A stretch of 64,000 nt of DNA from positions 1,798,001-1,862,000 of the forward strand of contig NZ_AP022873.1 in NCBI RefSeq assembly GCF_014701235.1, read 5' to 3'. Made by a program: the position numbers and the translations under genes. The notes under the pieces are model-generated. The model was not told where the DNA came from. It worked only from the letters and a program-made list of their open reading frames with translations, and ran no database searches. Positions 4,769 to 20,710 of the stretch are shown here, in pieces; within the stretch, counting starts at the first letter, position 1; every line of letters begins with the position of its first letter. This DNA is from Dissulfurispira thermophila (GTDB taxonomy: Bacteria > Nitrospirota > Thermodesulfovibrionia > Thermodesulfovibrionales > Dissulfurispiraceae).

Positions 4769-5435
4769 CCAGAGCACCTAAAACTGCACCTATTATCACC
4801 TCAAGAGGGGTATGTGCCTTTACCGTTACCCTACTTTGAGCTATGAGCACTGACAGTAAAAAACTAAGCAGTGAGGCAATAAAGCTCTCTGTGATATATG
4901 TAATCGCAATCCATGCTGAAAAAGCAATAGCAGAATGACCGCTCGGCATGCCACCGCGCAGGGGATGTCCCTTGCCTGAATATGCCTTGATCACCACCAC
5001 AATAATCAAAACAAGTATGACAGCAATAAGGGTAATTTCTTCCTTCGAATGTTTGGCAATATCGATACCATGCTCAAATGTCTTACTGAAGTATGGGAAT
5101 AATATAATGTATCCTAAAACTGCAGCACCAAAGGCAGTGATTAAAACCGCTCCAGCAGCCACATCCTTTGCAATCCTCGCCCTTTCACTACGATCAGGTG
5201 AAATCATGTCAACAACATATTCAATGGCTGTATTAATCATTTCTGCAAGCAGCACAAGTATAACTGCAATCGAGATAACAAGGAAATCTGTCCGTTCAAC
5301 TCCAAGAATATAACTCAAAACAAGGACTGCAACTGCTGAATAGAAATGATACATGAGATGTTTCTGCGTCTTTGCAGCATGCAGAATCCCCTCTATAGCA
5401 TTGTTTGCACTATCTATCCATTTTCTTAAAGGCAT
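4737..5435 (-). CDS. dgkA: Diacylglycerol/undecaprenol kinase fused to PAP2 phosphatase
   Basis: This 232-residue membrane protein has two parts. Residues 1-105 match the Gram-positive-type DgkA kinase (LRKWIDSANNAIEGI near the start, EMINTAIEYVVDMIS in the catalytic helix). Residues about 145-232 match a PAP2 phosphatase (PSGHSA, SRVTVKAHTPLEV). By family knowledge the first phosphorylates undecaprenol or diacylglycerol and the second removes phosphate from lipid phosphates; having both in one chain suggests lipid-carrier recycling. In many genomes dgkA follows ybeY directly; here ybeY is 14.7 kb away across the signalling island. No good ribosome-binding site precedes the ATG. Confidence 0.85.
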   Translation of the reverse strand: MPLRKWIDSANNAIEGILHAAKTQKHLMYHFYSAVAVLVLSYILGVERTDFLVISIAVILVLLAEMINTAIEYVVDMISPDRSERARIAKDVAAGAVLITAFGAAVLGYIILFPYFSKTFEHGIDIAKHSKEEITLIAVILVLIIVVVIKAYSGKGHPLRGGMPSGHSAIAFSAWIAITYITESFIASLLSFLLSVLIAQSRVTVKAHTPLEVIIGAVLGALVTLLLFLVFY

Positions 5436-5454
5436 GATATATAATTATATCATG
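5433..5454. promoter_or_regulatory. Palindrome containing both divergent start codons, with TATAAT
   Basis: CATGATATA-taat-TATATCATG is a perfect 9-bp inverted repeat. It contains the dgkA start codon on one strand and the kinase ATG on the other. TATAAT at 5440-5445 ends 6 bases before the kinase ATG, the spacing expected for a leaderless transcript. An equivalent arrangement (TATAAT 5 bases before an ATG) occurs at the cardiolipin synthase gene. Confidence 0.45.
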
Positions 5455-6117
5455 ACTCAAAACAATCACCTTCAATCCGTAGCATTTAATCTGCTCATGG
5501 CAGAAGAAAAAGAGCGGAGGCAGCTTGCATCAAATCTCCACGACAATGTTACGCAAACACTTGCCCTGTGTTTGATAAAATCAAAAATGCTGATGGAATC
5601 TCTGTCATCCACTGTTTATGCAGAGCCACTCAATGAAATATCCGAACTTATAAAGCAGACACTCGACAATATCAGGACTATGACATTTGAGATCAGCCCA
5701 CCTGATCTATATGAACTGGGTCTGCTATCTGCAATTGAAAGCCTCTGCGAGAGGTTTCATGATAAATATAGGCTGACAATCTATTTCCACATAAATAGAG
5801 AAATCGACAACATAAATGAAGAGGTATCAGTCCTCATCTTTAGAGCAGTGCAGGAACTTCTTTTTAATATAGTCAAACATGCTAATGCCAATATTGCAAG
5901 GGTTTCTATTGAAAGGGACAGAAATTTTATCAGAATCAATGTGTCTGATGATGGCATTGGTTTTAGTCCATCTGTAATGAATAATAAAGGCAATTACACA
6001 GGTTTTGGCATCTTTAGCATAAAAGAGCGACTGAAAGGCATTGGAGGACAAATGGATATAAAATCAAGACGTGGATTTGGAACACATATATCCATAAAAA
6101 TCCCTGTCATCTCATAG
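5452..6117 (+). CDS. Cytosolic sensor histidine kinase, NarX/LiaS-like (HisKA_3)
   Basis: This 221-residue kinase has no membrane segment and no recognisable sensor domain. The dimerisation/phosphoacceptor helix contains EKERRQLASNLHDNVTQ with the acceptor at about His30. The HATPase domain follows, with N-box ELLFNIVKHA, DDGIGF and the GFGIFSIKERL lid. The ATG at 5452 was chosen because earlier in-frame starts lie inside the divergent dgkA gene. This class pairs with NarL/FixJ regulators, so the regulator at 7907-8557 is the likely partner. A strong terminator follows at 6203-6230. Confidence 0.88.
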   Translation: MTQNNHLQSVAFNLLMAEEKERRQLASNLHDNVTQTLALCLIKSKMLMESLSSTVYAEPLNEISELIKQTLDNIRTMTFEISPPDLYELGLLSAIESLCERFHDKYRLTIYFHINREIDNINEEVSVLIFRAVQELLFNIVKHANANIARVSIERDRNFIRINVSDDGIGFSPSVMNNKGNYTGFGIFSIKERLKGIGGQMDIKSRRGFGTHISIKIPVIS

Positions 6118-6202
6118 CCATAAAGGGACAAAGTCCCTAAGAAAGACAGGTTAATGTTAAGACCGATTCACCAAAACCTTAAGCTTAACCTTAACCTGTT
6201 TT

Positions 6203-6230
6203 TATCAGGGATTTCCTGATAGATTTTTTT
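6203..6230 (+). terminator. Rho-independent terminator after the histidine kinase gene
   Basis: TATCAGG-gattt-CCTGATA forms a 7-bp stem followed by a run of seven T. It ends the kinase transcript before the CBS-GGDEF gene. Upstream, TTAACC-type repeats (6178-6197) and a small AGGGAC/GTCCCT hairpin (6124-6138) fill the gap. Confidence 0.75.
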
Positions 6231-6290
6231 ACTACTTTTAGTTTAAATTTTTAGGTCTAAAGTAGCTATCAGGGGAGGGATAATTCGCAA

Positions 6291-7910
6291 ATGATTGGCT
6301 TATGCCTGAAAGACATAGTCTGTAGAAAAGATATATGCCTTAATGAAGGAGCAACCTTAAAGCAGGCAATAGACCTGATGGAATCCAATGGAAAAGGGGT
6401 TGTCGTTATCCTCAAAGATGCAATACCAATTGGCATACTTACAGAAAGAGATATAGTCGAGATAGTTTACAGCGGAACAGATATAAACAGTCCTGCAATA
6501 AAATATGCTACAAAAAACCTTATAACCACTCATGAAACAAAGGCAATAGGCTACGCCTTGAATCTCATAGTCTCAAACAATATAAGACGAATAATTGTTG
6601 TAGATAAATCAGGTAGTTTCATAGGTGTGATAACACAGCAAGATATGGTTAAACACCTCGAAGATGACTTTTACCGCTCCACACTAAAAATAAGACATGT
6701 AATAGAAAAGATGCAGCCACTTATATACATTGATCAAGATAGTTCTCTCAATGATGCTATCAAAAAGATGATAGAAAACAAGGTCAGTGCTGTACCAATT
6801 TTAAAAGACAGTAAGGCGGTAGGAATAATTACAGAAAAAGATATACTCAAGGTTGTGAAAAACGGCATTTCACTAAACAGTCTTGCATCCGAATTCATGT
6901 CTCATCCAGTCATAACTGTAAGACTTGATGAACCAGTAACCCATGCTGTTGAGATTATGAACACAAAAAATATAAGAAGAGTTGTTGTTGTAAATTCAAA
7001 TAGCACTGCAGTAGCAATAGTAACACACAGAGACCTATTAAGAAATTTGGAAAGCACTTACACAGAATTCATAGAACGAAAGCTGAAACATACAAAGGAT
7101 ATACTAAATTTTCTTCCAGAGATGGTTATGGAGATAATAGATGCAGAGGAAGGTCAGGCAATAATCTGGGCAAATGAAAGGGCATTGAACAGATTTGGAA
7201 TGACAATCATAAACAAACCTATTACAGATTTTATTCCTTCTGACAAATGGGCAATAATTTATGGCACCCTCTGCAAACTTGGCAGAGCAGAAAACATAAA
7301 GGTCAAAAAGGATGATTTCATATATGAATTATCAGGTTTTTTCATAAAGACAGAAGCAGACCTCTGTGCAGGCAAAATACAGTTGATTATCAGAGACATT
7401 ACTGATGAGGTAAGGCTTTATACAACAGACCCACTGACAGGTCTTTATAATAGGAGATTCCTAAATGAGTTTCTCCATAAAGAATTGGAACTGAGTAAAA
7501 GATACCACAGGCAATTATCACTGGCAATAGCAGATATTGACGACTTCAAAAAATTAAATGACACCTACGGACATGTTGCAGGTGATGTAGTATTAAAGGC
7601 TATTGCAAAGACAATGCTCAAAAATGTAAGAGACTCTGATGTTGTAAGCAGATATGGCGGAGAGGAGTTTGTGATTGTCATGTCAGAGATAGGCAAGGAA
7701 ACTGCCTTAAAGGCAATAGAAAGAATAAGAGAAGCAATATCACAAGAGAAAATATCGCTTTTTGATGGAAGCAGCATTTCAATAACAATAAGCTCAGGCA
7801 TAGCCTCTTATCCTGATGATGCTGACTCCTCAGTTGATTTGCTCATTGCAGCAGATGATAGATTATACAAGGCAAAAAGAGAAGGGAAAAATAGAACAAT
7901 CTATTCATGA
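6291..7910 (+). CDS. Diguanylate cyclase with four CBS domains and a PAS-like domain
   Basis: A 539-residue cytosolic protein. Residues 1-260 hold four CBS modules in two tandem pairs (repeated xxVGIITExDIL motifs), which typically bind adenine nucleotides. Residues about 265-385 look like a PAS fold ending in the IRDITDEVRL linker. Residues 390-539 form the GGDEF domain with active-site motif GGEEF. RDSD sits five residues before it, an intact RxxD inhibitory I-site. It should make cyclic di-GMP under nucleotide or energy control. The start is supported by GGGGAGGG upstream. The stop codon overlaps the next ATG by four bases, so it is coupled to the response regulator. Confidence 0.9.
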   Translation: MIGLCLKDIVCRKDICLNEGATLKQAIDLMESNGKGVVVILKDAIPIGILTERDIVEIVYSGTDINSPAIKYATKNLITTHETKAIGYALNLIVSNNIRRIIVVDKSGSFIGVITQQDMVKHLEDDFYRSTLKIRHVIEKMQPLIYIDQDSSLNDAIKKMIENKVSAVPILKDSKAVGIITEKDILKVVKNGISLNSLASEFMSHPVITVRLDEPVTHAVEIMNTKNIRRVVVVNSNSTAVAIVTHRDLLRNLESTYTEFIERKLKHTKDILNFLPEMVMEIIDAEEGQAIIWANERALNRFGMTIINKPITDFIPSDKWAIIYGTLCKLGRAENIKVKKDDFIYELSGFFIKTEADLCAGKIQLIIRDITDEVRLYTTDPLTGLYNRRFLNEFLHKELELSKRYHRQLSLAIADIDDFKKLNDTYGHVAGDVVLKAIAKTMLKNVRDSDVVSRYGGEEFVIVMSEIGKETALKAIERIREAISQEKISLFDGSSISITISSGIASYPDDADSSVDLLIAADDRLYKAKREGKNRTIYS

Positions 7911-8557
7911 AAAAGATAAATGTTATCCTATCCGATGACCACAACATAATAAGAGAGGGGCTGGCATCTGTGCTTCAAAAACATCCCGACATCAAAGTAA
8001 TTGCACAGGCAGGTGATGGCAGGGTAACAGTTCAGTTGACAAAGGAACTAATGCCTGATGTTGTGGTAATGGATGTTACAATGCCGGGATTGAATGGCAT
8101 TGAAGCTACTCGCCAGATCATGTCTGCATGCAGTAATGTTAAAGTAATAGCACTATCAATACATTCCAGCAAACAATTTGTTATGGAAATGCTAAGGGCT
8201 GGTGCATCAGGCTATCTACTGAAAGATTGTGCTTCTGATGATCTGGCATATGCGATTAGGTCTGTGGCAAATGGACAGAACTATCTCAGCCCTCAGATAG
8301 CAAGGACCGTAATAAAAAACTATATAGATGATATCGAGACCATTAAAAATTCTGTCTTCTCTATCCTGACACATAGAGAAAGAGAGGTGCTGCAGCTTCT
8401 ATCTGAAGGTAAGAGCACAAAACAAATAGCATCGATATTAAGCCTCAGTATAAAAACCATCGAAACGCACAGGCAGCACATAACAAAAAAACTAAATATA
8501 AACAATATAGCTGAATTAACAAAATATGCAATACGGGAGGGACTGACACCACTATGA
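7907..8557 (+). CDS. NarL/FixJ-family response regulator
   Basis: A 216-residue two-domain transcription factor. The receiver shows the acidic pair DD at 10-11, the phosphoacceptor Asp56 in VVMDVTMPG and the conserved Lys in GYLLKD. The C-terminal LuxR-type helix-turn-helix contains HREREVLQLLSEGKSTKQIA and TIETHRQHI. It overlaps the cyclase gene by 4 bases and the FliL-like gene by 4 bases. The small HisKA_3 kinase at 5452-6117 is the probable donor. Targets are unknown; the surrounding genes suggest motility or chemotaxis control. Confidence 0.93.
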   Translation: MKKINVILSDDHNIIREGLASVLQKHPDIKVIAQAGDGRVTVQLTKELMPDVVVMDVTMPGLNGIEATRQIMSACSNVKVIALSIHSSKQFVMEMLRAGASGYLLKDCASDDLAYAIRSVANGQNYLSPQIARTVIKNYIDDIETIKNSVFSILTHREREVLQLLSEGKSTKQIASILSLSIKTIETHRQHITKKLNINNIAELTKYAIREGLTPL

Positions 8558-8943
8558 ATTTCAGGTATACAATCTTATTTTTAATGTTAATCATCTTGTT
8601 TATTTCGACTTATAGTCATGGTAGCGAATCAGCAAAGAAAGGTGGAGAAACACCAGTATTACAGCTTGACCCATTTATAACAAATATTGGCAGCGGAAAA
8701 AGATTTTTAAAATTCTCCATCTCCATTGAACTCTCAACACCAGCTATGGCAGAAAAGGCAAAGGCAAAAACAGGGATGATCAGAGATGCGATTATTATGC
8801 TTATAACAAGTAAAACACCAGATGATGTTTCTTCATCTGAAGGGAAGCAGCAACTCAAGGATGAATTAGTCACGAGATTGAATCAGATACTTGGTGAGGA
8901 TAGTATTAAAAATATTTATTTTACTGATTTTGTAATGCAATAA
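8554..8943 (+). CDS. fliL: FliL-like flagellar basal-body-associated protein
   Basis: A 129-residue protein with an N-terminal hydrophobic segment (residues 6-23) followed by a periplasmic domain. VLQLDPFITNIG, FLKFSISIEL and the C-terminal IYFTDFVMQ are characteristic of FliL, which surrounds and strengthens the stator of the flagellar motor. It lies outside any flagellar operon here and is translationally coupled to the NarL-type regulator (4-base overlap). The signal-like N-terminus is shorter than in classical FliL, so secretion or anchoring could differ. Confidence 0.78.
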   Translation: MNFRYTILFLMLIILFISTYSHGSESAKKGGETPVLQLDPFITNIGSGKRFLKFSISIELSTPAMAEKAKAKTGMIRDAIIMLITSKTPDDVSSSEGKQQLKDELVTRLNQILGEDSIKNIYFTDFVMQ

Positions 8944-8957
8944 GAGAGAAAATAAAA

Positions 8958-9290
8958 ATGTGGTTTAAAAAAAACAAAAACAACATATCATGCCCTGAAT
9001 GCAATGGCAGGATGGAGGTTACAGCTATAATTACAGATTCAGGCAGCCTTCCTGATTATTACGAGATAAGAAGAAAATACAAATGCAGAAGCAGAAAATG
9101 TAGGCATGAGTGCAGTTCTATAGAGCTAATAGCAATAAACGGAGATATACAATCTATAGCAGATGACTTAAACAAACTTTACAGCTCAATTGACACACTT
9201 AATGCATCACTCAAAACATTGCTTCAAGCAGCACATAAGCTGCAAGAAGTAAAAGGCTCAGTGGTATATAAAGGGCCTATTATGAATTAG
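8958..9290 (+). CDS. Small zinc-ribbon protein, function unknown
   Basis: A 110-residue protein with Cys12-x2-Cys15 and Cys43-x4-Cys48, a zinc-finger pattern. The CxxC plus Cx4C arrangement resembles the Ogr/Delta type of phage transcription activators, though the spacing between the pairs is longer and no phage genes are nearby. The C-terminal half is predicted helical. It is the last gene of the regulator-fliL unit, 14 bases downstream. No specific function can be assigned. Confidence 0.6.
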   Translation: MWFKKNKNNISCPECNGRMEVTAIITDSGSLPDYYEIRRKYKCRSRKCRHECSSIELIAINGDIQSIADDLNKLYSSIDTLNASLKTLLQAAHKLQEVKGSVVYKGPIMN

Positions 9291-9316
9291 GAAGGAGTAA
9301 CGATATCCATGAACGG

Positions 9317-9655
9317 CTATTTTAATAAAGCAAATAGAGCAGCTATAAGACCTGTCTGGACTACCCAGAAAATAAACATCCATTTGATTATCTCTGACTT
9401 TGTTTTTGCAATCTCTACTCTTAAGCCTGCTATTTCTTCAGTTATTCTTTTATCCAATCTTGCTATCTCCTCTGTTATCCGCCGGTTTATCTTTGCTACT
9501 TCTTCAGATAATCTGCGTTCAAACTTCTCTTCAGCTATCACAAGGGTGTCTTTTCTGCCTTCAAACTCTACTTCTTTAAGCAGCATTGCAAAAGACTCCG
9601 CTGCCTCGTCTCCGAGTTTGTCTCTTAATAGCTTTGGTATAGTTATTACAGACAT
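9317..9655 (-). CDS. Coiled-coil protein with C-terminal membrane helix (DUF1640/CCDC90-like)
   Basis: 112 residues. An N-terminal segment (IPKLLRDKLGDEAAESF) precedes a long charged coiled coil built of repeats such as NRRITEEIARLDKRITEEI. A C-terminal transmembrane helix runs over about residues 90-111. This layout is typical of small bacterial coiled-coil tail-anchored proteins related to the mitochondrial CCDC90 family; their function is unclear. It points against the neighbouring + strand genes and follows a broken paralogue. A related design occurs at 40746-41159. Confidence 0.72.
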   Translation of the reverse strand: MSVITIPKLLRDKLGDEAAESFAMLLKEVEFEGRKDTLVIAEEKFERRLSEEVAKINRRITEEIARLDKRITEEIAGLRVEIAKTKSEIIKWMFIFWVVQTGLIAALFALLK

Positions 9656-9893
9656 CTATATGCCTCCTCTGAGAAGTTTTACAAGGGCTGCAATAACTAC
9701 TGCCTGCGCTACAAGCATACCAGCTACCCATTTTACAATCTCTGACTTAAGCTCAATAAGCCGCAGGTCAAGATACTGTTTTGTAATAAGATTGTCGGAG
9801 ACCGTCTCTTTAACGACATTGGCAATCTCCTTAGATGCCTTTTCAGGTAGGTCTGCTGCTTTGATTTTTAGAGTGTCTATAGTGGTTTACATA
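9656..9893 (-). pseudogene. Broken small coiled-coil/TM protein gene (DUF1640-like)
   Basis: The reverse strand reads ATG immediately followed by TAA, then in the same frame TTIDTLKIKAADLPEK. Translation then slips at an A5 run (about 9840-9844) into another frame, giving ASKEIANVVKETVSDN, LITKQYLDLRLIELKSEIVK and the membrane helix WVAGMLVAQAVVIAALVKLL. Corrected, it is about 78 residues with the start, coiled coil and tail anchor of the family seen in the adjacent gene. Both a stop at codon 2 and a +1 base are needed to explain it, so it is probably dead. No alternative start rescues the membrane half. Confidence 0.6.
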
Positions 9894-9950
9894 AAATCAA
9901 TTATACAAAAACAAAGCAATTTTTACAGGCAATGGGCATGTGGTAAATTT

Positions 9951-9980
9951 AATGAGTCAAGAACTTTCTCTTGACCCATT
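9951..9980. repeat. Hairpin in the leader of the first chemoreceptor gene
   Basis: AATGAGTCAAGA-actttc-TCTTGACCCATT is a 12-bp stem with one mismatch, 82 bases before the chemoreceptor start. There is no T-run. It could be a regulatory leader structure or a transcript end for the pseudogene region. The rest of the gap 9894-10062 shows no gene. Confidence 0.45.
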
Positions 9981-10062
9981 AGCTACTTGACTACTTAAAA
10001 ATTAAAGGGGGTAAAATCAGCACAGGGCTTATTTCACATAAAAAACAAATAAGAGGTGTTCA

Positions 10063-12309
10063 GTGATTATTAAAAAGAAAATCAACAGTAGCATTTTTAT
10101 GAAATTAGCAACTTTGATAACAGGGCTACTATTATTAGGACTAACTGTGTTAATAGTTTTATCAACAATAATTCTCACATCAAACACAAAAAAACAGTCT
10201 GATCATGAACTATCTGATAAACATTCTGCTATTAGCAATATATTTTATAGCAGGTCTATCGGGCTTTTAGGGTATGCAGCAGAGCTTGCGAATCGGGCTG
10301 ATGTTAAAGCAGCAATTAAATCAGAAAATCGTGACCAGCTTAAGAGCATTTTTGTCCATACATTTAAATCAATAAACAGTGCAAACCCTGATGTTCACAC
10401 CATTGAAGCCTCAAATCCAAAGGGGATTATGCTCATTAGAGGACACAATCCTGAAAAATTTGGTGATGACAAGTCAAAGACCGAGCTTTTTGGCAATGCG
10501 ATAAAAACCAAAAAGCCTCAACTTGGCATGGAGGTCTCTACCACAACAGGTAAACTCAGCATTGATGCTGTATACCCTGTAATGGATGGGGATAACCTTG
10601 TAGGGCTTGTTAAAGTAGGGACATATCCAACTAATAATACCCTTGAGCAACTTTCAAAGGTTTCAGGCACTGAAATAGCAATAATAAGTGGTCAAAAGGT
10701 AATCGGCACATCATTAGGCAATATAGAATCTATAATCAGTAAAATAACAAATAAACTTTCTGATATTACTATTGATAATAAGCATTATCGTGCTAAACAA
10801 TTCCCATTGATGTTTGGAGATAAGGTTATTGAAAGTAGTAACATGCTACTTTTTTTAAGCAATGATGAAATCAATCATACAACTAAATCAGTGATCACCA
10901 CTCAGATAATCCTTGCTGTAGTAATATTAGCCCTTCTGTTGACTGCAATTTCAATAGTAATAAAACATATTCTTAATCCACTAAGACATGTGGATTCAGC
11001 ATTGCAAGAAATTGCAAAAGGTAATTTAAGGACAACTATTGAAGTAACTACTACAGATGAAATAGGTAATATTACAAGGAGCATGAATAAATGCCTTGAT
11101 TCGTTTAATAGCCTTATAAACAGTATACTCACAGCCTCTAACAATGTAGTATCAACAGTGGATACATTAAGGGCAAGGTCTCAAAAGACAGCAGAAGGTG
11201 CAAAGACCCAATCAGGACAAGCACATCAAATAGCAACAGCAGCAGAAGAGATGTCTCAGACAATAACAGACATAGCAAGAAATGCATCAGTAGCAGCAGA
11301 GACATCAGAAGATGCAATGAAGACAGCCTATGAAGGCAAAGAAATAGCAGACGGGGCAGTAAACACAGTAAACAGCGTTTATACATCTACAGTAGAGCTT
11401 GCTGGAATGGTAGAAAAACTCAATAACAGGGCAACAGAGATAGGAGACATAGTAACAGTAATCAAAGACATAGCAGACCAGACAAACCTATTGGCATTAA
11501 ATGCAGCAATAGAGGCAGCAAGGGCAGGAGAGCAGGGGAGGGGATTTGCAGTTGTTGCTGATGAAGTAAGGAAACTTGCAGAAAGGACAATAAAGGCAAC
11601 AGGCGAGATATCAGAAAAGATAGGAGCAATACAGCAAGAATCTGTGCAGACATCTAACACAATGACATCTGCATCAGATGAGGTAACAAAGGCAACAGAA
11701 TACATAAGGAAGGTAGGAGATTCACTCAACCACATAGTAGATGCAGTGCAGAGAGTAAAAGACCAGATAACACATATAGCCACAGCAGTAGATGAGCAAT
11801 CAGCAGCATCAGAGGAAGTGGCAAAGAACATAGAGAAGACATCAGCAATCTCTAAAGACATGGAGAGGATGGCAGAGGATGTAATGCATCAGGTAAATGC
11901 ACTCACAAAAATATCAGAGGAATTGAGGAATTCATCTGCTGGTTTTAAGACAAAAGGCAGTGAACTCATGATACTTGATTTAGCAAAGACAGACCACAGG
12001 ATATTCATTGGCAAAATAGGTGCATGTTTGAAAGGTGATACAACACTTGACCCATCACAATTGTCAGACCATCACAACTGTAGATTCGGCAAATGGTATT
12101 TTGGAGAAGGAAAAGAGATATGCGGGAATCTGCCGAGCTTTAGGGCAATAGATGAGCCACATGCAAGGATACACGCACTGGCAAAAGAGGCAGTAGCAGC
12201 ATATAACTCTGGAGACAAACTAAAGGCAGAGAGGATTTACAAAGAAATGGAAGACATCTCAGACCAAATTGCAAGCCTGCTTGATGGGATTAAAAGGGAG
12301 TGTAGATAA
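10063..12309 (+). CDS. Methyl-accepting chemotaxis protein with Cache sensor and CZB domain
   Basis: 748 residues with a GTG start preceded by AGAGGTG. TM1 spans about 12-36 and a periplasmic Cache-type ligand domain about 40-270 ([11 protein letters not shown] typical of this group). TM2 spans about 280-303. HAMP follows, then a long signalling hairpin with the conserved tip [20 protein letters not shown]. The tail is a chemoreceptor zinc-binding (CZB) domain at about 650-745, with HNCRFGKWY and PHARIH carrying the metal-binding His and Cys residues. CZB domains sense zinc or hypochlorous acid in other bacteria. No cheA, cheW, cheB or cheR lies in the window, so it must feed an array encoded elsewhere. 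Confidence 0.93.
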
Positions 12310-12319
12310 TAGGTTCGGT

Positions 12320-13090
12320 ATGCAAAAAATAATTCTCATAGTAGATGACCTATTGATGATACACCGTATTATAGGACAAATACTTACAGATGCAGGGTAT
12401 AAAGTTTTAAAGGCTGAAAACGGCAAAAAAGGCTATGAAATGACCATGACATGGAAACCCGATCTCGTAATAATGGACATTGAAATGCCTGTGATGAACG
12501 GAATCGAGGCAACAAAAATGATAAAGTCAGCCCCTGCCATATCACACATACCAGTTGTCATACTCATTTCGCTTGGAAGCGAAGAAGATAGAGAAAATGC
12601 AAAAAAGGCAGGGGCCGACTATTTTTTAAACAAACCTATTTCAAAAGACAGTTTGCTTGAAACAGTCAAAAACATATTACACAAGGAAAAATACGACATC
12701 AACGCATATATTACTGACAAAATCAGCGATACAGTAGAGAACACAGATGATACAGGCAGCACAGCAGAACACAAGATTAGAAGATTTTATCCAATTGCCT
12801 CACCAGAAAATGAAATGGGCATTTTTTGCATATCGCGGACAAATAACACAATAGACATGGCAGAGGCTGAAATAAATCTACTCGTTGGCAGCATAAATGA
12901 GATTGTACAACGAGAGATAGAGATAAACCAGATGAGCAATGAGATAATAGAACTGTCAGAACAAATAAATTTTTTATTTAACTTTGCTACACAAACAACA
13001 GGAATCAATAAAATACATGCCTTTTGCATAGCAGCAATCGAAACCGTTTCAAAAAAAAATATCAGCAGATCAGGGTTTTCTTATAGTTAG
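12320..13090 (+). CDS. REC-GAF-HD-GYP protein, N-terminal part (frame interrupted at A9)
   Basis: The first reading frame encodes a receiver domain (acidic pair 9-10, acceptor Asp53 in VIMDIEMPVMNG, Lys in FLNKPI), a linker, and the beginning of a GAF-like domain. It stops at 13088-13090 shortly after a run of nine A (13051-13059). Removing one A joins it smoothly to the downstream frame that completes the GAF and carries the HD-GYP domain. The start ATG at 12320 was chosen because the receiver begins right there (QKIILIVDD). It lies 10 bases after the chemoreceptor gene, so the pair is probably cotranscribed. Confidence 0.8.
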   Translation: MQKIILIVDDLLMIHRIIGQILTDAGYKVLKAENGKKGYEMTMTWKPDLVIMDIEMPVMNGIEATKMIKSAPAISHIPVVILISLGSEEDRENAKKAGADYFLNKPISKDSLLETVKNILHKEKYDINAYITDKISDTVENTDDTGSTAEHKIRRFYPIASPENEMGIFCISRTNNTIDMAEAEINLLVGSINEIVQREIEINQMSNEIIELSEQINFLFNFATQTTGINKIHAFCIAAIETVSKKNISRSGFSYS

Positions 13091-14072
13091 AAGCCATGAT
13101 GACGATATTATAACAATCCCAAATAACATCACTGAAGATAAGGCAATAGATATCATAAGCAATGATATATTTAAGATTGCACTGCAAAAAGGCGAACCTG
13201 TAATCTCAAAAACATCTGACAGTAGTTCACTGCTTGCCTGCCCTATAATTGTAAAAGACGGATCAATAGGCACTATGGCTTTCTTAAGAAATCCAGACAA
13301 ACAGCAATTTACTGCATATGAAAAAAAGTTTATAGGTGTTATAAATAAAAGCATATCTTCAACACTTGAGATACTGAGGCTTTATGAAGGACTCAAAAAA
13401 CTATATCTAAACACTGTCAAGGCATTGGCTGCTGCTATTGATGCAAAAGACCCCTATACCCATGGACATTCTTTCAGGGTTGCAAAGTATTCAGTGGCAA
13501 TGGCAAGAAAACTAAATCTTTCAGAAGAGGCTATTTCTGACCTTGAAATTGCAGTTTATATGCATGACCTTGGAAAAATAGGCATTTCTGAAGCTGTTTT
13601 AAAAAAGGCAGGAAAATTCACAGATGAAGAGTACAACGAAATAAAAAAACATCCCCACTTTACAGGCAAAATCCTTGCACCCATAAATCTGCCTGATTTT
13701 ATTGTCCTTACAGCAATACAGCACCATAAAAGGCTTGACGGCAAAGGCTATCCACTCGGACTTTCAGGTGACCAGATAATCAGCACTGCAAAGATTGTTG
13801 CAGTAGCAGATGTGTTTGATGCCCTCACATCAGACCGCCCCTACAGACCGGCTATGCCAGTAGAAAAGGCATTAGAAATACTTATTAATGACATAGATCG
13901 AGCCTTTGACAGAAAAATAGTTTTAGCCCTTATTGATGTATTAAAAGATAATGACATCATTGAAGAAATAAAGGATGTATATCGAGACCTCAAGTTTGTA
14001 GATATTCATGGACTAAACTGCTTCCTCACAACTCTGACAGACCAGCTCGTACGACCTGTAATCCGGATATAA
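13062..14072 (+). pseudogene. REC-GAF-HD-GYP protein, C-terminal part with HD-GYP domain
   Basis: The frame opens right after the A9 run and runs without a stop; its first ATG is only at 13275, inside the GAF domain. It contains the rest of the GAF fold (DQGFLIVRSHDDD, PVISKTSDSSSLLACPIIV, GTMAFLR) and then a complete HD-GYP phosphodiesterase domain: THGHSFRVA, YMHDLGKIGI, the signature HHKRLDGKGYPLGL and VADVFDALTSDRPYR. HD-GYP enzymes degrade cyclic di-GMP. All catalytic motifs are intact, which argues for recent frameshift, slippage decoding or a sequence error rather than old decay. A remnant of ybeY begins 3 bases after the stop. Confidence 0.7.
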
Positions 14073-14074
14073 AA

Positions 14075-14127
14075 AGCAACTCTTTTTCCATCTCCCTCAT
14101 CTTCGTTGGTATTTATTTTTCTCGTGC
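14075..14127 (-). pseudogene. ybeY 3'-end remnant, about 50 bp (copy A)
   Basis: About 52 bases match the C-terminal coding end of the truncated ybeY copy at 15237-15507 (agcaactctttttccatct onward). There is a 4-base deletion and a few mismatches, and the orientation is the same. It sits directly after the HD-GYP stop codon. It has no coding capacity and is read as a scar of rearrangement at the end of ybeY. Confidence 0.7.
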
Positions 14128-14153
14128 CCGCAATTCTGGGACAGTCCCCTTAG

Positions 14154-14330
14154 ATTCATAAAGATATGTGAGTTTCACGAAATTTGTAATCCATTGATTT
14201 TATTGATTTATTTGACATAGCATTTTTAGCAGTTTTTTGAGGGGATGGAGGGCAATTTTGTCTTACTACTTCCTCTCCCCTTGGGGAGAGGGAATTTTTT
14301 AATTTTGTGAAACCCTATTCATAAAGATAT
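14154..14330. mobile_element. MITE-like element with terminal inverted repeats and 14-bp flanking direct repeats
   Basis: ATTCATAAAGATAT occurs at 14154-14167 and again at 14317-14330. The 149 bases between have near-matching inverted ends (GTTTCACGAAATT at 14172-14184 against AATTTTGTGAAAC at 14301-14313, 12 of 13). They include a strong internal hairpin (CTCTCCCC-tt-GGGGAGAG near 14273-14291). There is no coding potential. The right direct repeat contains the stop codon region of the hepT-like gene, so the element appears to have inserted at that gene's 3' end. Confidence 0.5.
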
Positions 14331-14744
14331 CTTCCTAAGGTAGGCTGTTATTTTGTTGATATCTTTTATATTCTTTTTTAAAACGCCGTAAACAATATTA
14401 TCCTCAACCTTATCGTATCCATGGACAATAACATTTCTCATCCCTATCATCTTATCCATCAAATTGAGATATTCGACCGGGAATAAATCGTTCTCAGCTA
14501 ATATATAAAATGCCTCTCTATTGCTTTCCGGAGCTTTAAGTCCTTTGTCTGCTACTATCATCTTTCCGATATCTATAATTGCTTCTATCGTCTTATGGAG
14601 ATTTCTTTCCGTAGCATCTTTTATAAGCCATGATTTAATATATTCTGCATATGTAGGAACCTGCCTACTTAGGTTTCTAAGCTTTTTGATGCAGTCGTTC
14701 GCTGTCTCGAATTTTGAAGAATACTCAAACCTCTGCTTTGCCAT
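14319..14744 (-). CDS. hepT: HEPN-domain toxin, HepT/DUF86 family
   Basis: A 141-residue helical protein with the HEPN RNase motif RNVIVHGY (R-x4-6-H followed by Tyr) at about residues 102-109. In characterised systems HepT is an RNase toxin whose Tyr is AMPylated by its MNT partner. It overlaps the upstream mntA-like gene by 20 bases, as is common for this pair. A MITE-like element abuts its 3' end. The pair lies between two remnants of ybeY, so it was probably acquired as a cassette. Whether it acts as a toxin-antitoxin or a defence module here cannot be told. Confidence 0.82.
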   Translation of the reverse strand: MAKQRFEYSSKFETANDCIKKLRNLSRQVPTYAEYIKSWLIKDATERNLHKTIEAIIDIGKMIVADKGLKAPESNREAFYILAENDLFPVEYLNLMDKMIGMRNVIVHGYDKVEDNIVYGVLKKNIKDINKITAYLRKISL

Positions 14745-15174
14745 GTCTTATCTCTGTTAACTCCCGATAATACGGAATAAAATCAAAATATTCGCTTTTT
14801 ACATAATTTTCAAATGCTCTCCTGTACGGCCTTAACTGTTGCAGTTCGTATATAAGACTGCCATTTGAGATAACCGAATATTGAAGCAAGACCGATACGA
14901 GCCTGCCCTTGAGATTAAATACGCTTACTTTGTTGTTCAAGCCGATCTCTTTTGCCTTTTTGGTAACAATATCCTCCATTATCGAAATTAACCTTAAAAC
15001 ATCATCTTCGGCAACATTCGGTGAAGGCAGTATGGCAATGTCAATATCGCTATCACCTCTCAATCTACCTTCCAGTGCCGAACCATAGAGATACACTGCA
15101 ACTATCTCTGCAGGAATCTCTGCGCTGCTAAGATTGTCCTTCATATGTCGAAAAATATCTACCTTATCAGGCAT
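14725..15174 (-). CDS. mntA: MNT-type minimal nucleotidyltransferase, MntA-like antitoxin
   Basis: 149 residues with the polymerase-beta nucleotidyltransferase signature YGSALEGRLRGDSDIDIAIL at about 29-48 (GS-x9-DxD). By family knowledge MntA-type enzymes AMPylate the Tyr of HepT and neutralise it. The start is preceded by AAGAGGTTAAGG. A possible -10 (TATACT) lies about 30 bases further upstream, so the pair likely has its own promoter. It immediately follows the truncated ybeY copy B. Confidence 0.85.
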   Translation of the reverse strand: MPDKVDIFRHMKDNLSSAEIPAEIVAVYLYGSALEGRLRGDSDIDIAILPSPNVAEDDVLRLISIMEDIVTKKAKEIGLNNKVSVFNLKGRLVSVLLQYSVISNGSLIYELQQLRPYRRAFENYVKSEYFDFIPYYRELTEIRHGKAEV

Positions 15175-15233
15175 AGCCTTAACCTCTTGGAATAGTATAA
15201 CAAAAAAATATCCCTCCTACAAAGATTTCGCCT

Positions 15234-15507
15234 TCACTCTAACTCCCTGAGCAACTCTTTTTCCATCTCCCTCATCTTCTTTGCTTGGTATTTATTTTTT
15301 TCGTGGTCATATCCAAGAAGATGAAGAAGTCCGTGAATCAAAAGCCATGCAACTTCTTCATAAAAGGCAAATCCATGCTCCTTTTCCTGTCTTTTTGCCT
15401 GTGGAATGTTAATAACAATATCACCAAGCAGCATCATCCATCGAGAGTCAAAGGCTTGAAGACTGAAAGCTGAAAGCCTTTTTTTGAGCCTTGATGCCTT
15501 ATTGAAC
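15234..15507 (-). pseudogene. Truncated ybeY copy (copy B), 3' 270 bp
   Basis: Nearly identical to bases 20183-20450 of the intact ybeY, with only a few substitutions plus a shortened heptamer array at the break. It encodes at most 67 residues from an internal ATG (MMLLGDIVI) and retains the zinc motif [11 protein letters not shown]. It lacks the N-terminal half, so it is not a working enzyme. It keeps what looks like the native C-terminus (EKELLRELE), whereas the intact gene has an altered tail. It is therefore the original 3' end of ybeY displaced from its gene. Confidence 0.85.
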
Positions 15508-15538
15508 TCATCAAAATTGAACAGTTATAATACAGCTA

Positions 15539-16408
15539 ATGATACAACATGAAGACATAAAAAGAGCTGAAGTAATAGCTCGTGATATTGGCATACCACC
15601 ACAGCCTGATATTGTTATGAGTATCCTTCAAGAGATAAATAAGAATACCCCTGATTTAAAAAAAATATCTGACTTGATAATGAAAGATGCCTCTACTGTA
15701 GCAAGACTATTGAAAGTAGCAAATTCACCCTTTTTTTCAAGAGCAAAGGTAGATTCTGTCTTTCATGCCATCCAAATACTCGGTATTAAAAACTTCTATA
15801 ATATTGTCTTGATGTGTAGCCTTGAGGATATTATAAACAACTCAGGACTACAGCTTAGTAATCTCTGGAAACACTCTTATCTAACAGCAATGATAGCAGG
15901 TTATATAGCAAAAAAATATAAATTATGTTCAGAAGAGCATGCTTATATGGCAGGTCTATTTCATGACTGCGGCATTATGCTGATGATGAAGAAATGGCAT
16001 GACTACAATCAAATAGTTGAATATACTTTATACCTGAATCCACAATATCCGGCATATGAGAAATTCGAACTAATAACAGCCTATGAAACCAGTAAATACA
16101 CCTCAAATCACTGCGTACTCGGCTATACTATGGCTAAATCATGGAAACTGCCTGATATTGTAATCAACTGTTTACTCCATCACCATCATCATGATATTTC
16201 TATCCACAAAAAAGTTGATGATAGAATAATATGCTCACTACTTCACATATCAGAGTTAATATCCATGTCATTTGATTATTCGTCTGAAAAATTTTTCTAT
16301 ATCTATTCAAGATGGTTAGAAGTTTATAAAAATTCTCTAAGTGAACTCGGATTATCCGAAAGCAGTATAAGTCCTCTCATTACAGAAGTCTCAAGATTTT
16401 TTGCTTAA
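15539..16408 (+). CDS. HDOD-domain signalling protein
   Basis: 289 residues with an N-terminal HDOD domain. IPPQPDIVMSILQEIN, the DLIMKDASTVARLLKVANSPFF region and HAIQILGIKNFYNIVL are typical. Later motifs (AGLFHDCGIMLM) resemble a degenerate HD fold, but the paired metal ligands of active phosphodiesterases are not all evident. HDOD proteins act as scaffolds or regulators in chemotaxis, c-di-GMP and motility pathways. It overlaps or abuts the REC-PP2C-HATPase gene and probably shares its regulation. It begins 31 bases after the ybeY remnant, at the left edge of the inserted block. Confidence 0.85.
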   Translation: MIQHEDIKRAEVIARDIGIPPQPDIVMSILQEINKNTPDLKKISDLIMKDASTVARLLKVANSPFFSRAKVDSVFHAIQILGIKNFYNIVLMCSLEDIINNSGLQLSNLWKHSYLTAMIAGYIAKKYKLCSEEHAYMAGLFHDCGIMLMMKKWHDYNQIVEYTLYLNPQYPAYEKFELITAYETSKYTSNHCVLGYTMAKSWKLPDIVINCLLHHHHHDISIHKKVDDRIICSLLHISELISMSFDYSSEKFFYIYSRWLEVYKNSLSELGLSESSISPLITEVSRFFA

Positions 16409-16409
16409 T

Positions 16410-18083
16410 ATGGATACACTTGCAGAATTAAAAAAGATAACACAAAATTGCACAGTTATGTGTGTCGAAGATGATGATTCTGTGCTTTCATTGCTCCATG
16501 AAGCACTTTCTGGACTTTTTAAACATGTTATCACAGCAAAAAATGGACAGGATGGAATAGATAAGTTTCACAAAAACAAAATAGACCTCCTGATTACAGA
16601 CAATATCATGCCAGTAATGAACGGCATAGATATGATTAAGGAAATAAAAAAAACAGAGCCTAAACTACCTATAATCTTGATAACAGCCCACACTGATACC
16701 GACATCTTAATGGAAGCTATAAATATTGGTGTAACGCAATTTATTGCAAAACCTTTTACCATTAATATCCTTTTCAATGCTATAGAGACAGCAATTCAAA
16801 GAATAATAGTTGAAAAGCAAAAAATGCTTTATCAAGAAACCGAACTATTGAAATACAAAGAGAGCTACAATATACTGCAGCAAAAACTTGCTCTTAAAAA
16901 GCAACACAACATAATAAAAAACGATCTCTATTATAAAAAACTCTTGATTTATAATGATACAAAAGCAAGCGAATGGCTCATAAATATACGCTATGAACCG
17001 CACGATATCCTCTCTGGCGACTTTTATAGTATAAGAAAAATAGCTAAAGATAAAATCATTATATATCTATCAGATGCCATGGGTAAGGGATTAAATGCAT
17101 TTATATCAAATGCTGTCATAACATCGTTTCTGAATTTTTCGATTGATAAGGCGCTAAAAAAAAATGACTTTGATAAAGAGAGATTTTTCAATGATTTTTT
17201 CTATTTTTCAAAACAATATCTATCAGAAGATGAGGCATTATGTGCTGTATTACTCTTTATAGACTTTGAAAAAAATAGTCTTGAAATAGCTAATTTTTCA
17301 ATGCCGCCTATTCTCATTGAAACAGAAAAGAGAGAATTGCTAAAGATTAGCAGTAACAATCCACCTATTATGCGATTTGCCGAAAGATTTAAAAAAGATA
17401 TTTATAATATCGAATCACTTGAGAAAATGCTCATCTGTAGCGATGGTATATATAATGAAAAATACTGTGACTATATAGAAAATGATTTTATAAATGCAGC
17501 GTTTAAAAATCAATTTTTTAAAAGATTCACCGAACGGACTATCACACCTGATGATGATATAACCTTTATCTTTATAAAAAAAATACAATACATCCCAAAA
17601 TGGACAAAGACATACTCGATTAAAAGCAGACTTGAAGATGTACAATCTATAATCACAGAAATTGAAGTATTTCTGATGGAGATGGGCATGGACGCTGTGT
17701 TTATTGCAGAATGTATAACCGCTGTTTCAGAAATGACAATGAACGCATATGAACACGGCAGTCTAAATATCACATACCAACAAAAAAATAGACTTATAAA
17801 GGAAGGAAAATACGAGGAATATCTGCTTGATTTAGAAAAACAAATTGACAAAAAAATAGCGATTACAATAGAATTATTTGAAAATTATAATAGCTTATTT
17901 ATATGCTTCAAAATAACCGATGAGGGACATGGGTTCGATACATCAATAATAAAAGAAACCATGCAAGACATTAATCTATTACACTACAGAGGTATAAAAA
18001 TCGTTAAAGGCATTGTTGATGAAATTTATTACAATAACTCAGGCAACGAAGTCATCCTATTAAAGGAATGCAGCGAGAGATAG
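16410..18083 (+). CDS. Response regulator with PP2C phosphatase and RsbW-like kinase domains (HsbR-like)
   Basis: 557 residues in three modules. The receiver (Asp64 in LITDNIMPVMNG, acidic cluster 20-23) is followed by a coiled linker (about 130-180). A PP2C/SpoIIE phosphatase domain follows, with GDFYS, SDAMGKGLNAF, CSDGIYNE and PDDDITF. The tail is a GHKL anti-sigma-type kinase domain (ECITAVSEMTMNAYEHG, ITDEGHGFD). The same layout is known from Pseudomonas HsbR, which switches a STAS protein between phosphorylated and free states; the STAS gene follows at 18235. The start is taken at ATG 16410, one base after the HDOD stop; TTG 16401 is possible. No clear ribosome-binding site is seen, suggesting coupling. 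Confidence 0.87.
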   Translation: MDTLAELKKITQNCTVMCVEDDDSVLSLLHEALSGLFKHVITAKNGQDGIDKFHKNKIDLLITDNIMPVMNGIDMIKEIKKTEPKLPIILITAHTDTDILMEAINIGVTQFIAKPFTINILFNAIETAIQRIIVEKQKMLYQETELLKYKESYNILQQKLALKKQHNIIKNDLYYKKLLIYNDTKASEWLINIRYEPHDILSGDFYSIRKIAKDKIIIYLSDAMGKGLNAFISNAVITSFLNFSIDKALKKNDFDKERFFNDFFYFSKQYLSEDEALCAVLLFIDFEKNSLEIANFSMPPILIETEKRELLKISSNNPPIMRFAERFKKDIYNIESLEKMLICSDGIYNEKYCDYIENDFINAAFKNQFFKRFTERTITPDDDITFIFIKKIQYIPKWTKTYSIKSRLEDVQSIITEIEVFLMEMGMDAVFIAECITAVSEMTMNAYEHGSLNITYQQKNRLIKEGKYEEYLLDLEKQIDKKIAITIELFENYNSLFICFKITDEGHGFDTSIIKETMQDINLLHYRGIKIVKGIVDEIYYNNSGNEVILLKECSER

Positions 18084-18234
18084 GAGTTTAGAGATAGAGG
18101 GGGGAGATGGGAAAAAAGAAGAAGTTTGGACTTTAAATCAACAGAAACAATAGTCCCCTACTGATAAATCACAAGCCATGAGGATAGTTAAACTTAATTT
18201 GACATTTAATTTTTCTTAAAAAAGAGGAGGGGTT

Positions 18235-18534
18235 ATGGAGGCAATAGCATCAGGCATATCAGAAGTTACTATCACTGGAGAAATAAAATCTATAAACGAT
18301 TATCTTGACATCAAAAAAGTTATAACAGAGCTTATTGAAAATAATGACGTTGATTCAATCACAATAAAAATACCTACTTCGGCTTCCATAAATTCTGCAC
18401 TGATAGGTTTTTTCTTAAGACTTGTGCATGAAAACAAAATCAAACTCACAATACACGTCGGCAACGATAGATTATTAAACTTGCTTAATATAATGAATCT
18501 AATGACTATCTTTAATGTACAAAAGAAAATATAA
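18235..18534 (+). CDS. STAS-domain anti-sigma factor antagonist
   Basis: A 99-residue stand-alone STAS protein. Ser54 in INSALIG aligns with the phosphorylated Ser58 of SpoIIAA (DSSGLG), although the preceding Asp is Asn and the second Ser is Ala. It is the obvious substrate for the phosphatase and kinase domains encoded just upstream. AAGAGGAGGGG precedes the ATG. The 151-base gap before it contains no recognisable terminator. The chemoreceptor gene follows 10 bases downstream, linking the switch to chemosensing. Its binding target is not encoded nearby. Confidence 0.83.
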
Positions 18535-18544
18535 GGGGGGCGCA

Positions 18545-20179
18545 ATGAAAAAACTTTTCGATATGGTTTTAAGCATAGGAATTAAAAAGAAAGTATTAAT
18601 AGGTTACATTTTTATGAGTTTACTCATATTTGCCATCATTAGTTTTATTGCTATAAATGCATTTCATATCAAATCCAGATATGAGTTTCTGAATACTATA
18701 AGTAAAGACATACAAATCATTACACAGCTTAAATCTGATATAAATGGCATAAGGGCTTCATTTCTGAGAATGGCTATAGCAAAAGACCCAGATACATGGC
18801 AAAGACAAGAAGATGTAATGCATTTCTACTCAGACCAGAGTGATGAAAATCTTTCAAAATTAAAATATGGACGATATAAAGATAAAATCGCTGAAATGGA
18901 AAAGACATGGAAGCCCTTTAAAGAAACTATATTTAATGAGCTCATTCCACTTGTTAAATCAGGGAATGTTGCCAGGGCAATGGAAATACTTGGAACAACA
19001 CAGGCAGAAAGGTCTAAAGAATTCATGGCTATAGCCAATGAAATTATAGAAACTGCAAAAAATGAATTCTCAGAAAATACAAGCAATATAAACAGAGAAA
19101 TAAAAAACACTATTATTTTAGTGGTAGTCTTTGTTATAACGAGTTTTTCTATTGCCTTTGCTTTTTCTTTCTGGTTTATAAATAAATATGTAGTTGGTGA
19201 TCTAATCAGAATAGAACAGGCAGCAGAGAAATTCTCAGATGGCGATCTAACAGTTATAATTAGCCCTGAAAGTAAAGATGAATTTGGCATCATTTCTGAC
19301 AAACTCAACGAAAGTTTGACCCAATTTAACAACATGATAAAAAGCATTTTAAAAGTATCGAACAATGTTGTATCTGCTGTTGAAATATTAAAAAGAATGG
19401 CTGAAAATGCAAGCGATGGAACAAAAATACAATTTCAGCAAGCATCTCTAATATCCGACTCTGCTGATAAAATGATAAAAACCATAGTAAATATCTCGAA
19501 TAATTCATCAAAGGCACAGGAAAGCACTGAATCAGGAATGAATACAGCAGAGAAAGGCAAAGAAATTGCAGATAAAGCCATAGAAACAGTAGAAACAGTA
19601 AACCACATGACAACAGAGCTATCATCTGTGATCAAAAATTTAACAAGTCATGTTGAGGCTATAAGTGAAATAGCTACAGTAATTAAAGATATAGCAGACC
19701 AGACAAACCTTTTGGCACTGAATGCAGCTATTGAGGCGGCAAGGGCTGGAGAACAAGGAAGGGGATTTGCAGTAGTAGCAGATGAAGTAAGAAAACTTGC
19801 AGAGAAAACCATTAAAGCAACAGTAGAAATCGAAAATAAAATCACTTCAATCAAACAAGAATCGGAAAAAACAACCATATCAATGTCTCAAACCTTTAAT
19901 GCTGTTAATATAGCTACAGATTATATAAGAAATGTTGGAAACAGCCTTCACGAAATTGTAAATGCTATTAAAACCGCATATAAAGAGGTTTTAAGCATAA
20001 CAGAAGCAGTGCATGAGCATTCAGCAGGCTCACTTGATGTATCTGTAAATATAGAAAAAACACTTTCTGTCTCAAAAAATATGGAAAAAATGACTTCTGA
20101 ATTAATGAACGAAATTTATTCATTGCTTTCTATAGCAAACGATTTAAAAGCAATGAGTTCAAGATTTAAAACAAGATAG
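18545..20179 (+). CDS. Methyl-accepting chemotaxis protein with four-helix-bundle sensor
   Basis: 544 residues; the ATG at 18545 is preceded by AAGGGGGGCGCA. TM1 spans about 15-38, a periplasmic helical domain of the 4HB_MCP type about 40-195 and TM2 about 198-222. HAMP follows, then the signalling hairpin with [20 protein letters not shown]. The cytoplasmic part is close to that of the first chemoreceptor, but there is no CZB tail. Its last 21 bases overlap the 3' end of the convergent ybeY gene, which gives ybeY its altered C-terminus. It marks the right end of the inserted signalling block. Confidence 0.93.
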
Positions 20180-20710
20180 TAGTTGTTTTTCCATCTCCCT
20201 CATCTTCTTTGCTTGGTATTTATTTTTTTCGTGGTCATATCCAAGAAGATGAAGAAGTCCGTGAATCAAAAGCCATGCAACTTCTTCATAAAAGGTAAAT
20301 CCATGCTCCTTTGCCTGTCTTTTTGCCTGTGGAATGTTAATAACAATATCACCAAGCAGCATCATCCGTCGAGAGTCAAAGGCTTGAAGACTGAAAGCTG
20401 AAAGCCTTTTTTTGAGCTTTGAGCTTTGAACCTTGATGCCTGACGCCTGACGCTTATTGCTGAATGCAATTTGCGGGAACGAAAGCACATCTGTAGTTTT
20501 ATCTTTTTCACGATATTGCAAATTCAATTCTCTCATCTTCCTGTCATTTACAAAGAATACGCTTATCTCCAGCAATAGATAATGAGCAACAAATAATGAG
20601 TCTAACTTGCCGCTATCCTTCAGGTATTGGAGAGACCTTTTCAGTATCTGTTTTACTCTCCGCTGGTTTACCCTCATCAATCTTTGATTGTTTTTTATTG
20701 TTATTTCCAT
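20159..20710 (-). CDS. ybeY: Endoribonuclease YbeY (intact copy with altered C-terminus)
   Basis: A single-strand-specific metallo-endoribonuclease needed for 16S rRNA 3' maturation and ribosome quality control. 183 residues. The N-terminus includes [14 protein letters not shown], followed by KTTDVLSFP. The zinc site [11 protein letters not shown] is intact. Two oddities: a stretch of about 30 residues between TDVLSFP and LLGDIVI is encoded by a heptamer array (20375-20460), and the last residues (QLLSCFKS) are read from the end of the convergent chemoreceptor gene. The native tail survives in the remnant at 15234. It lies downstream of pgpH-like and phoH as in many genomes. Confidence 0.9.
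20375..20460. repeat. Heptamer array inside ybeY
   Basis: A run of degenerate 7-mers in two registers: GCTTGAA-GACTGAA-AGCTGAA, then TTGAGCT-TTGAGCT-TTGAACC-TTGATGC-CTGACGC-CTGACGC. It is translated in YbeY. The truncated ybeY copy B ends within a contracted version of this array, so the rearrangement break lies in it. Confidence 0.75.

Follow-up and report, generated by a model that had tools for sequence, protein, structure and literature searches.

A receiver-phosphatase-kinase protein with a divergent STAS partner beside a chemoreceptor gene: a candidate partner switch for chemosensing

Four neighbouring genes of Dissulfurispira thermophila, coding for an HDOD-domain protein, a receiver-PP2C phosphatase-GHKL serine kinase protein (RPK), a divergent STAS protein and a HAMP-MCP chemoreceptor (MCP), are proposed here to form a partner-switching signalling unit in which STAS acts on the chemosensory apparatus. 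We put the probability of this reading at about 0.52. The genes lie in a stretch of 64,000 nucleotides, called the window below, and their coordinates are collected in Table 1. The output of most known partner switches is a sigma factor; for a few it is a cyclase or another target. The one described here, if the proposal is true, might reach chemosensing by a path free of sigma and anti-sigma factors.

Table 1. Features of the block and its borders (positions in the window)
Feature	Positions	Strand	Basis
Diacylglycerol-kinase-like gene	4737-5435		
237-nt direct repeat, left copy, ybeY fragment	15258-15494	.	98% identical to 20186-20422
HDOD-domain protein, 289 aa	15539-16408	+	PF08668, E 9e-42
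RPK, receiver-PP2C phosphatase-GHKL serine kinase, 557 aa	16410-18083	+	Pfam domains, conserved catalytic residues, fold matches
Receiver domain of RPK	16455-16784	+	PF00072; invariant columns D64, T92, K114
PP2C (SpoIIE-type) phosphatase domain of RPK	16971-17585	+	PF07228
GHKL serine-kinase domain of RPK	17622-18062	+	PF13581; residues kept in relatives
Divergent STAS protein, 99 aa	18235-18534	+	AF2 model, Foldseek, hhalign, Ser54 invariance
HAMP-MCP chemoreceptor, 544 aa from ATG 18545	18545-20179	+	PF00015, E 4e-41; HAMP, E 2e-6
ybeY	20159-20710	-	
237-nt direct repeat, right copy, inside ybeY	20186-20422	.	98% identical to left copy

RPK and its STAS partner

RPK is read from the ATG at 16410, the mechanical open reading frame opening earlier, at TTG 16401. 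The initial annotation had seen a receiver, a complete PP2C phosphatase and a GHKL kinase in this one polypeptide, and judged by sequence all the residues predicted to be catalytic are indeed present. The three Pfam matches (Response_reg, E 7e-25; SpoIIE, i.e. PP2C, E 3e-10; HATPase_c_2, E 1e-9) all exceed the curated cut-offs, and no other protein of the 2.37 Mb genome matches SpoIIE. Catalytic residues are invariant or nearly invariant across relatives: the receiver has its phospho-acceptor Asp64 (16599-16601) and the conserved Lys114; the metal-ligand residues Asp204, Asp222, Asp345 and Asp383 of the phosphatase are conserved in 77-79 of the 79 rows of the alignment; and the alignment of relatives retains the kinase motifs, namely N-box E441/N445, D504xG506xG508 and R527-G528. 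The AlphaFold model of RPK (pLDDT 85.5) matches the folds of Pseudomonas aeruginosa RssB (REC-PP2C) and of the RsbU-RsbW part of Rv1364c.

The STAS protein is less easily recognised. Its reading frame has no Pfam match in the window, none of 47 members of its subfamily matched the Pfam STAS models at E 0.01, and the NCBIfam anti-sigma-antagonist model gives E 8e-5, which is below threshold (TIGR00377, 22 bits against a cut-off of 53). Its fold is nevertheless that of STAS. The AF2 model (pLDDT 93.8) has the strand and helix order of STAS topology, and Foldseek finds RsfB, SpoIIAA and TM1442 as the best PDB matches; the top twelve are all anti-sigma-factor antagonists, with probabilities of 0.97-1.00 and E-values of only 0.004-0.13. 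Profile-profile comparison with canonical STAS by hhalign (probability 93%, E 3.7e-7) aligns Ser54 on the canonical phospho-Ser. In an hmmsearch against PDB sequences RsbV was matched over its full length (E 0.3), in line with the fold search. The top hits of that hmmsearch, to the HR1 region of coronavirus spike, were rejected as chance matches of a short stretch that scored several times over in repeat constructs.

The putative phospho-acceptor Ser54 (18394-18396) opens helix 2 (residues 54-65) and is invariant in 47 of 47 relatives. The Asp that precedes the phospho-Ser in the canonical D-S-x-G motif occurs in no member of the subfamily (T in 28, P in 15, N in 2, S and L in 1 each), Asn53 taking its place in the window protein; the canonical Gly after the Ser is replaced as well, mostly by a hydrophobic residue. 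The earlier reading of a stand-alone STAS protein with a conserved Ser54 thus holds for the fold and for the serine, and has to be corrected in that the window protein and its relatives are a divergent STAS subfamily lacking the Asp, one unannotated in current domain databases. We found no description of it in the open-licence literature. Since Pfam misses the subfamily, similar pairs are probably under-annotated. A plasmid collection held no homologues of this STAS, and its matches to the PP2C domain were distant only.

The features by which a partner switch can be recognised in sequence are all present: an intact PP2C domain, a GHKL kinase with N-box and DxGxG, and a STAS-fold partner with its Ser. 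The GHKL domain of RPK would phosphorylate STAS on Ser54, the PP2C domain would take the phosphate off again, and the receiver, phosphorylated on Asp64 by some histidine kinase (possibly CheA), would set the balance between kinase and phosphatase. These predicted steps are well supported by sequence and by established knowledge of the families. STAS in one of its two phosphorylation states, most likely without phosphate, would then act on the chemosensory apparatus, either through the co-encoded MCP or through the CheA/CheW engaged by it, and a slow stress or metabolic signal would thereby adjust receptor output. Our guess for HDOD is that it probably modulates the input side.

Distribution of the pair and setting of the block

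Among 295 genomes of the same phylum, strong RPK homologues (E<1e-60) occur in 13, and an intact STAS gene occurs in exactly those 13. In a second collection STAS was present in 39 of 39 genomes reached through RPK-like loci; these belong to Nitrospirae (including Magnetobacterium and Magnetominusculus), Campylobacterota, Deferribacteraceae and Geobacteraceae. The pair is also found in Campylobacterota, Deferribacterota and Desulfobacterota, at least four phyla in all. Of 74 unique STAS loci, 45 have RPK as the gene immediately before STAS, and 57 have it no more than two genes away. The pairing of RPK with STAS is not chance. It is accessory, as neither gene is present in two of three further genomes of the genus that were sampled. 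A fourteenth genome of the phylum, G245, without a strong RPK, carries 25 in-frame residues left over from the STAS C-terminus (G245:C17:19318-19392; L130:9094-9396), probably a decayed copy.

Co-occurrence of all four genes elsewhere had been set beforehand as the refutation test. RPK and STAS passed it strongly by the counts above. HDOD accompanies them in part, in the window's clade and in relatives of Magnetobacterium, and MCP in the window, in G289 and, as a STAS-MCP pair, in G113. The HDOD gene, described in the initial annotation as packed with RPK, does lie directly upstream, its stop codon 1 nt ahead of the RPK start. The same order is kept in G289, G113, G158, another metagenome-assembled genome (MAG) of the window's clade and the Magnetobacterium relatives, and HDOD is upstream of RPK in the relatives L035, L036, L037, L038, L043 and L051.

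The HD-GYP enzyme that had been counted as part of the module fared otherwise. A REC-(GAF-like)-HD-GYP gene (12269-14072) is broken near an A9 run around 13050, and the frame at 13275-14072 is its latter half, out of frame with the first; the idea of an intact module enzyme was rejected for this frameshift. The frameshift at the homopolymer is a sequencing error, a slippage site or the mark of a pseudogene; relatives with an uninterrupted frame of about 500 aa are present in this genome and in a second one of the family. An opposite-strand gene pair also separates the HD-GYP gene from HDOD. It consists of overlapping HEPN-like (RNVIVH) and MNT nucleotidyltransferase-like frames (14319-15174, - strand) resembling an MNT/HEPN toxin-antitoxin pair, and a 44-nt piece of the ybeY repeat is found on both sides of it (14075 and 15250). 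A scan of the block for promoters and terminators performed no better than shuffles.

The four-gene block is flanked by the copies of the 237-nt repeat, has a GC content of 32% against 38% around it, and belongs to a strain-variable island of about 14.7 kb (5436-20158), mostly of signalling genes, between the diacylglycerol-kinase-like gene and ybeY. These two genes adjoin with nothing between them in the congener G113 and enclose Ku- and ligase-like genes in the congeners G062 and G087. The four genes seem to have been acquired or rearranged together not long ago. Such a setting would also suit a real RPK-STAS partner switch to which MCP, HDOD and HD-GYP are functionally unlinked, being merely co-resident in an island rich in signalling genes. 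We consider this improbable, because HDOD stays with RPK and STAS with MCP at different chromosomal positions in G289 and G113, and in other phyla MCP is again linked at a rate well over background. A FliL gene (8554-8943), preceded by a LuxR-type response regulator, also lies in the island, apart from the flagellar genes at C1:1.35 Mb.

Chemosensory neighbours and the output of STAS

The chemoreceptor gene begins 10 nt past the end of STAS, next to it as first annotated, and the linkage proved to be real. A same-strand MCP lies within two genes of STAS in 22 of the 74 unique loci, above the 2.2-3.7 expected from MCP densities of 0.8-1.4% (7-38 MCPs per genome) and the roughly 6 expected from the in-locus background (15 of 725 genes at least four positions away), the loci being related and their counts not independent. 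Clustered at 40% identity, the STAS loci form 21 clusters, 10 of them with an MCP. The linked MCPs are of seven types by their N-terminal region, and the RPK tree requires eight or more changes in linkage. A C-terminal length common to the MCPs beside STAS (156-157 residues beyond the hairpin motif) was discarded as a distinguishing trait, since distant MCPs of the same loci often share it. Most RPK-STAS pairs of Nitrospirota have no adjoining MCP, and several lie beside HD-GYP, GGDEF, histidine-kinase or unrelated genes.

Orthologues of the window MCP follow STAS in G289 (68% identity) and G113 (62%). Gene orders in Campylobacterota are MCP-RPK-STAS, RPK-STAS-MCP and STAS-MCP-RPK, and the order in Geobacteraceae is MCP-RPK-STAS. 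Where STAS stands apart from RPK, it is often still accompanied by chemosensory genes. The unit of G113 is split into HD-GYP-HDOD-RPK at one site and STAS-MCP at another; Sulfurospirillum has STAS-MCP with no RPK nearby; Denitrovibrio has MCP-STAS and another copy as STAS-CheD; and the second STAS of G228 closes a CheA-MCP-CheW-CheR-CheB-HK-CheD operon, its genes named by eye and homology. CheA and the HK type of that operon adjoin an RPK-STAS pair in L052. In the Denitrovibrio locus L160 (6955-7921) the STAS that precedes the CheD homologue is divergent. It is mainly because MCP or che genes still accompany STAS at loci away from RPK that we infer a chemosensory output, to which we give about even odds. 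The gene neighbourhood fits both an action of STAS on MCP and a feeding of RPK by MCP, and the two directions cannot be separated from it.

The second direction underlies the main rival to a chemosensory output. MCP would be the input sensor, its CheA phosphorylating the RPK receiver, and STAS would act on c-di-GMP metabolism through a diguanylate cyclase or an HD-GYP protein. HsbA-HsbD and SiaC-SiaD of Pseudomonas are precedents for such an output. The cyclase HsbD is bound by HsbA (PMC6482189). An HD-GYP gene lies upstream of HDOD-RPK in G113 and, broken, in the window, and directly downstream of STAS in L042, L045, L046 and L070, while GGDEF genes or a GGDEF-PP2C-kinase fusion are interleaved with RPK-STAS copies in L065/L067. 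The fusion possibly couples a partner switch to c-di-GMP directly. In this locus pair, from the Nitrospirae MAG nDJH15bin8, RPK-STAS is in tandem, and the two STAS genes, which have equal scores, may stem from a recent duplication or from the assembly. Even so, we regard a c-di-GMP output as rather unlikely: an MCP serving for input only does not need the STAS-MCP pairs without nearby RPK (G113, Sulfurospirillum), the c-di-GMP genes adjoin a minority of loci and differ between lineages, and the HD-GYP gene of the window is frameshifted. For the same reasons, the broken HD-GYP gene and c-di-GMP genes beside the pair in only some relatives, the self-contained module linked to c-di-GMP that was first suggested is weakened or loses its support.

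Control of a sigma factor or of FlgM, as a further output, appears more doubtful still. In its favour, HsbR-HsbA shares the domain order and the adjacent STAS gene (PMC6482189), FlgM and a FliA-like sigma factor are encoded elsewhere in the genome, and a paralogous pair in L032 lies beside fliL-fliM-fliN. Yet FlgM is present in the module-free congeners G062 and G087 and absent from G228, which has two STAS copies, so that FlgM does not co-vary with the module and co-occurrence lends no support to it as the obligatory target of STAS. No sequence in 10 genomes reached the RpoS cut-off. Unsystematic inspection of the genes beside the STAS loci examined revealed no recognisable sigma or anti-sigma gene, and the block itself contains neither FlgM nor an anti-sigma factor, as noted from the outset.

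The proposed action of STAS on chemosensing may extend beyond the window. We tentatively suggest that the STAS subfamily, obligately coupled to PP2C-kinases in at least four phyla, could be a phospho-switchable regulator of chemoreceptor arrays, its serine phosphorylation gating chemosensing directly, without any sigma or anti-sigma factor. The subfamily makes targets of STAS other than anti-sigma factors testable, with the adjacent chemoreceptor or CheA/CheW as the named candidate, and some host lineages are culturable (Sulfurospirillum, Denitrovibrio, Geobacteraceae).

Comparison with known systems

HsbR-HsbA of Pseudomonas aeruginosa and CrsR-CrsA of Shewanella oneidensis have the same order of REC, PP2C and kinase in one polypeptide, and an adjoining STAS-only protein that can be phosphorylated on one Ser (Ser56 in HsbA). 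FlgM and HsbD are targets of HsbA, and RpoS is a target of both systems (PMC6482189). The window STAS, unlike theirs, lacks the canonical Asp and falls outside Pfam STAS; no RpoS was found in the 10 genomes tested and FlgM does not track the module, which is linked to MCP, HDOD or che genes. The analogy with HsbR/HsbA and FlgM drawn in the initial annotation is therefore retained for the layout and weakened for the targets, and the module, with its unannotated STAS, is not filed as HsbRA.

SypE of Vibrio fischeri likewise unites REC, PP2C and kinase in one protein and targets a STAS-only protein, SypA. The system controls biofilm through the syp locus, and no link to an MCP is known. SypE has its receiver in a central position (PMC3610818), unlike RPK. 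Rv1364c of Mycobacterium tuberculosis, among the best fold matches of RPK, has PP2C (RsbU) and kinase (RsbW) fused. It carries a PAS sensor instead of REC and a fused STAS domain, and works in a sigma-factor pathway.

CheS of Sinorhizobium is a STAS-only protein that is reported to bind CheA (PMC12654446). In S. meliloti it belongs to chemosensory clusters, as does the member of our subfamily that ends the che operon of G228, and it alters the flow of phosphate between two CheYs. We know of no PP2C or kinase partner of CheS.

The nearest published arrangement is the triad of F7 chemosensory systems, whose stage 1-2 clusters encode a serine phosphatase and an anti-sigma antagonist together with an mcpA-like receptor (PMC7184735). 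MCP, STAS and PP2C genes are adjacent there, as in the window and L035, and a Vibrio record has MCP-STAS-REC/PP2C/kinase after cheR-cheD-cheB. The Vibrio STAS is canonical (IDSAGLG) and escapes the profile of the window subfamily; its phosphatase is a REC-PP2C-kinase too, but distant from RPK, with a long branch on the tree. The window triad, unlike that of F7, stands outside a che operon: the window contains no cheA, and the CheA-type matches of the genome are at C1:112747 and C1:1374632. The divergent subfamily described here could shed light on the MCP/STAS/serine-phosphatase triad of the ancestral F7 systems.
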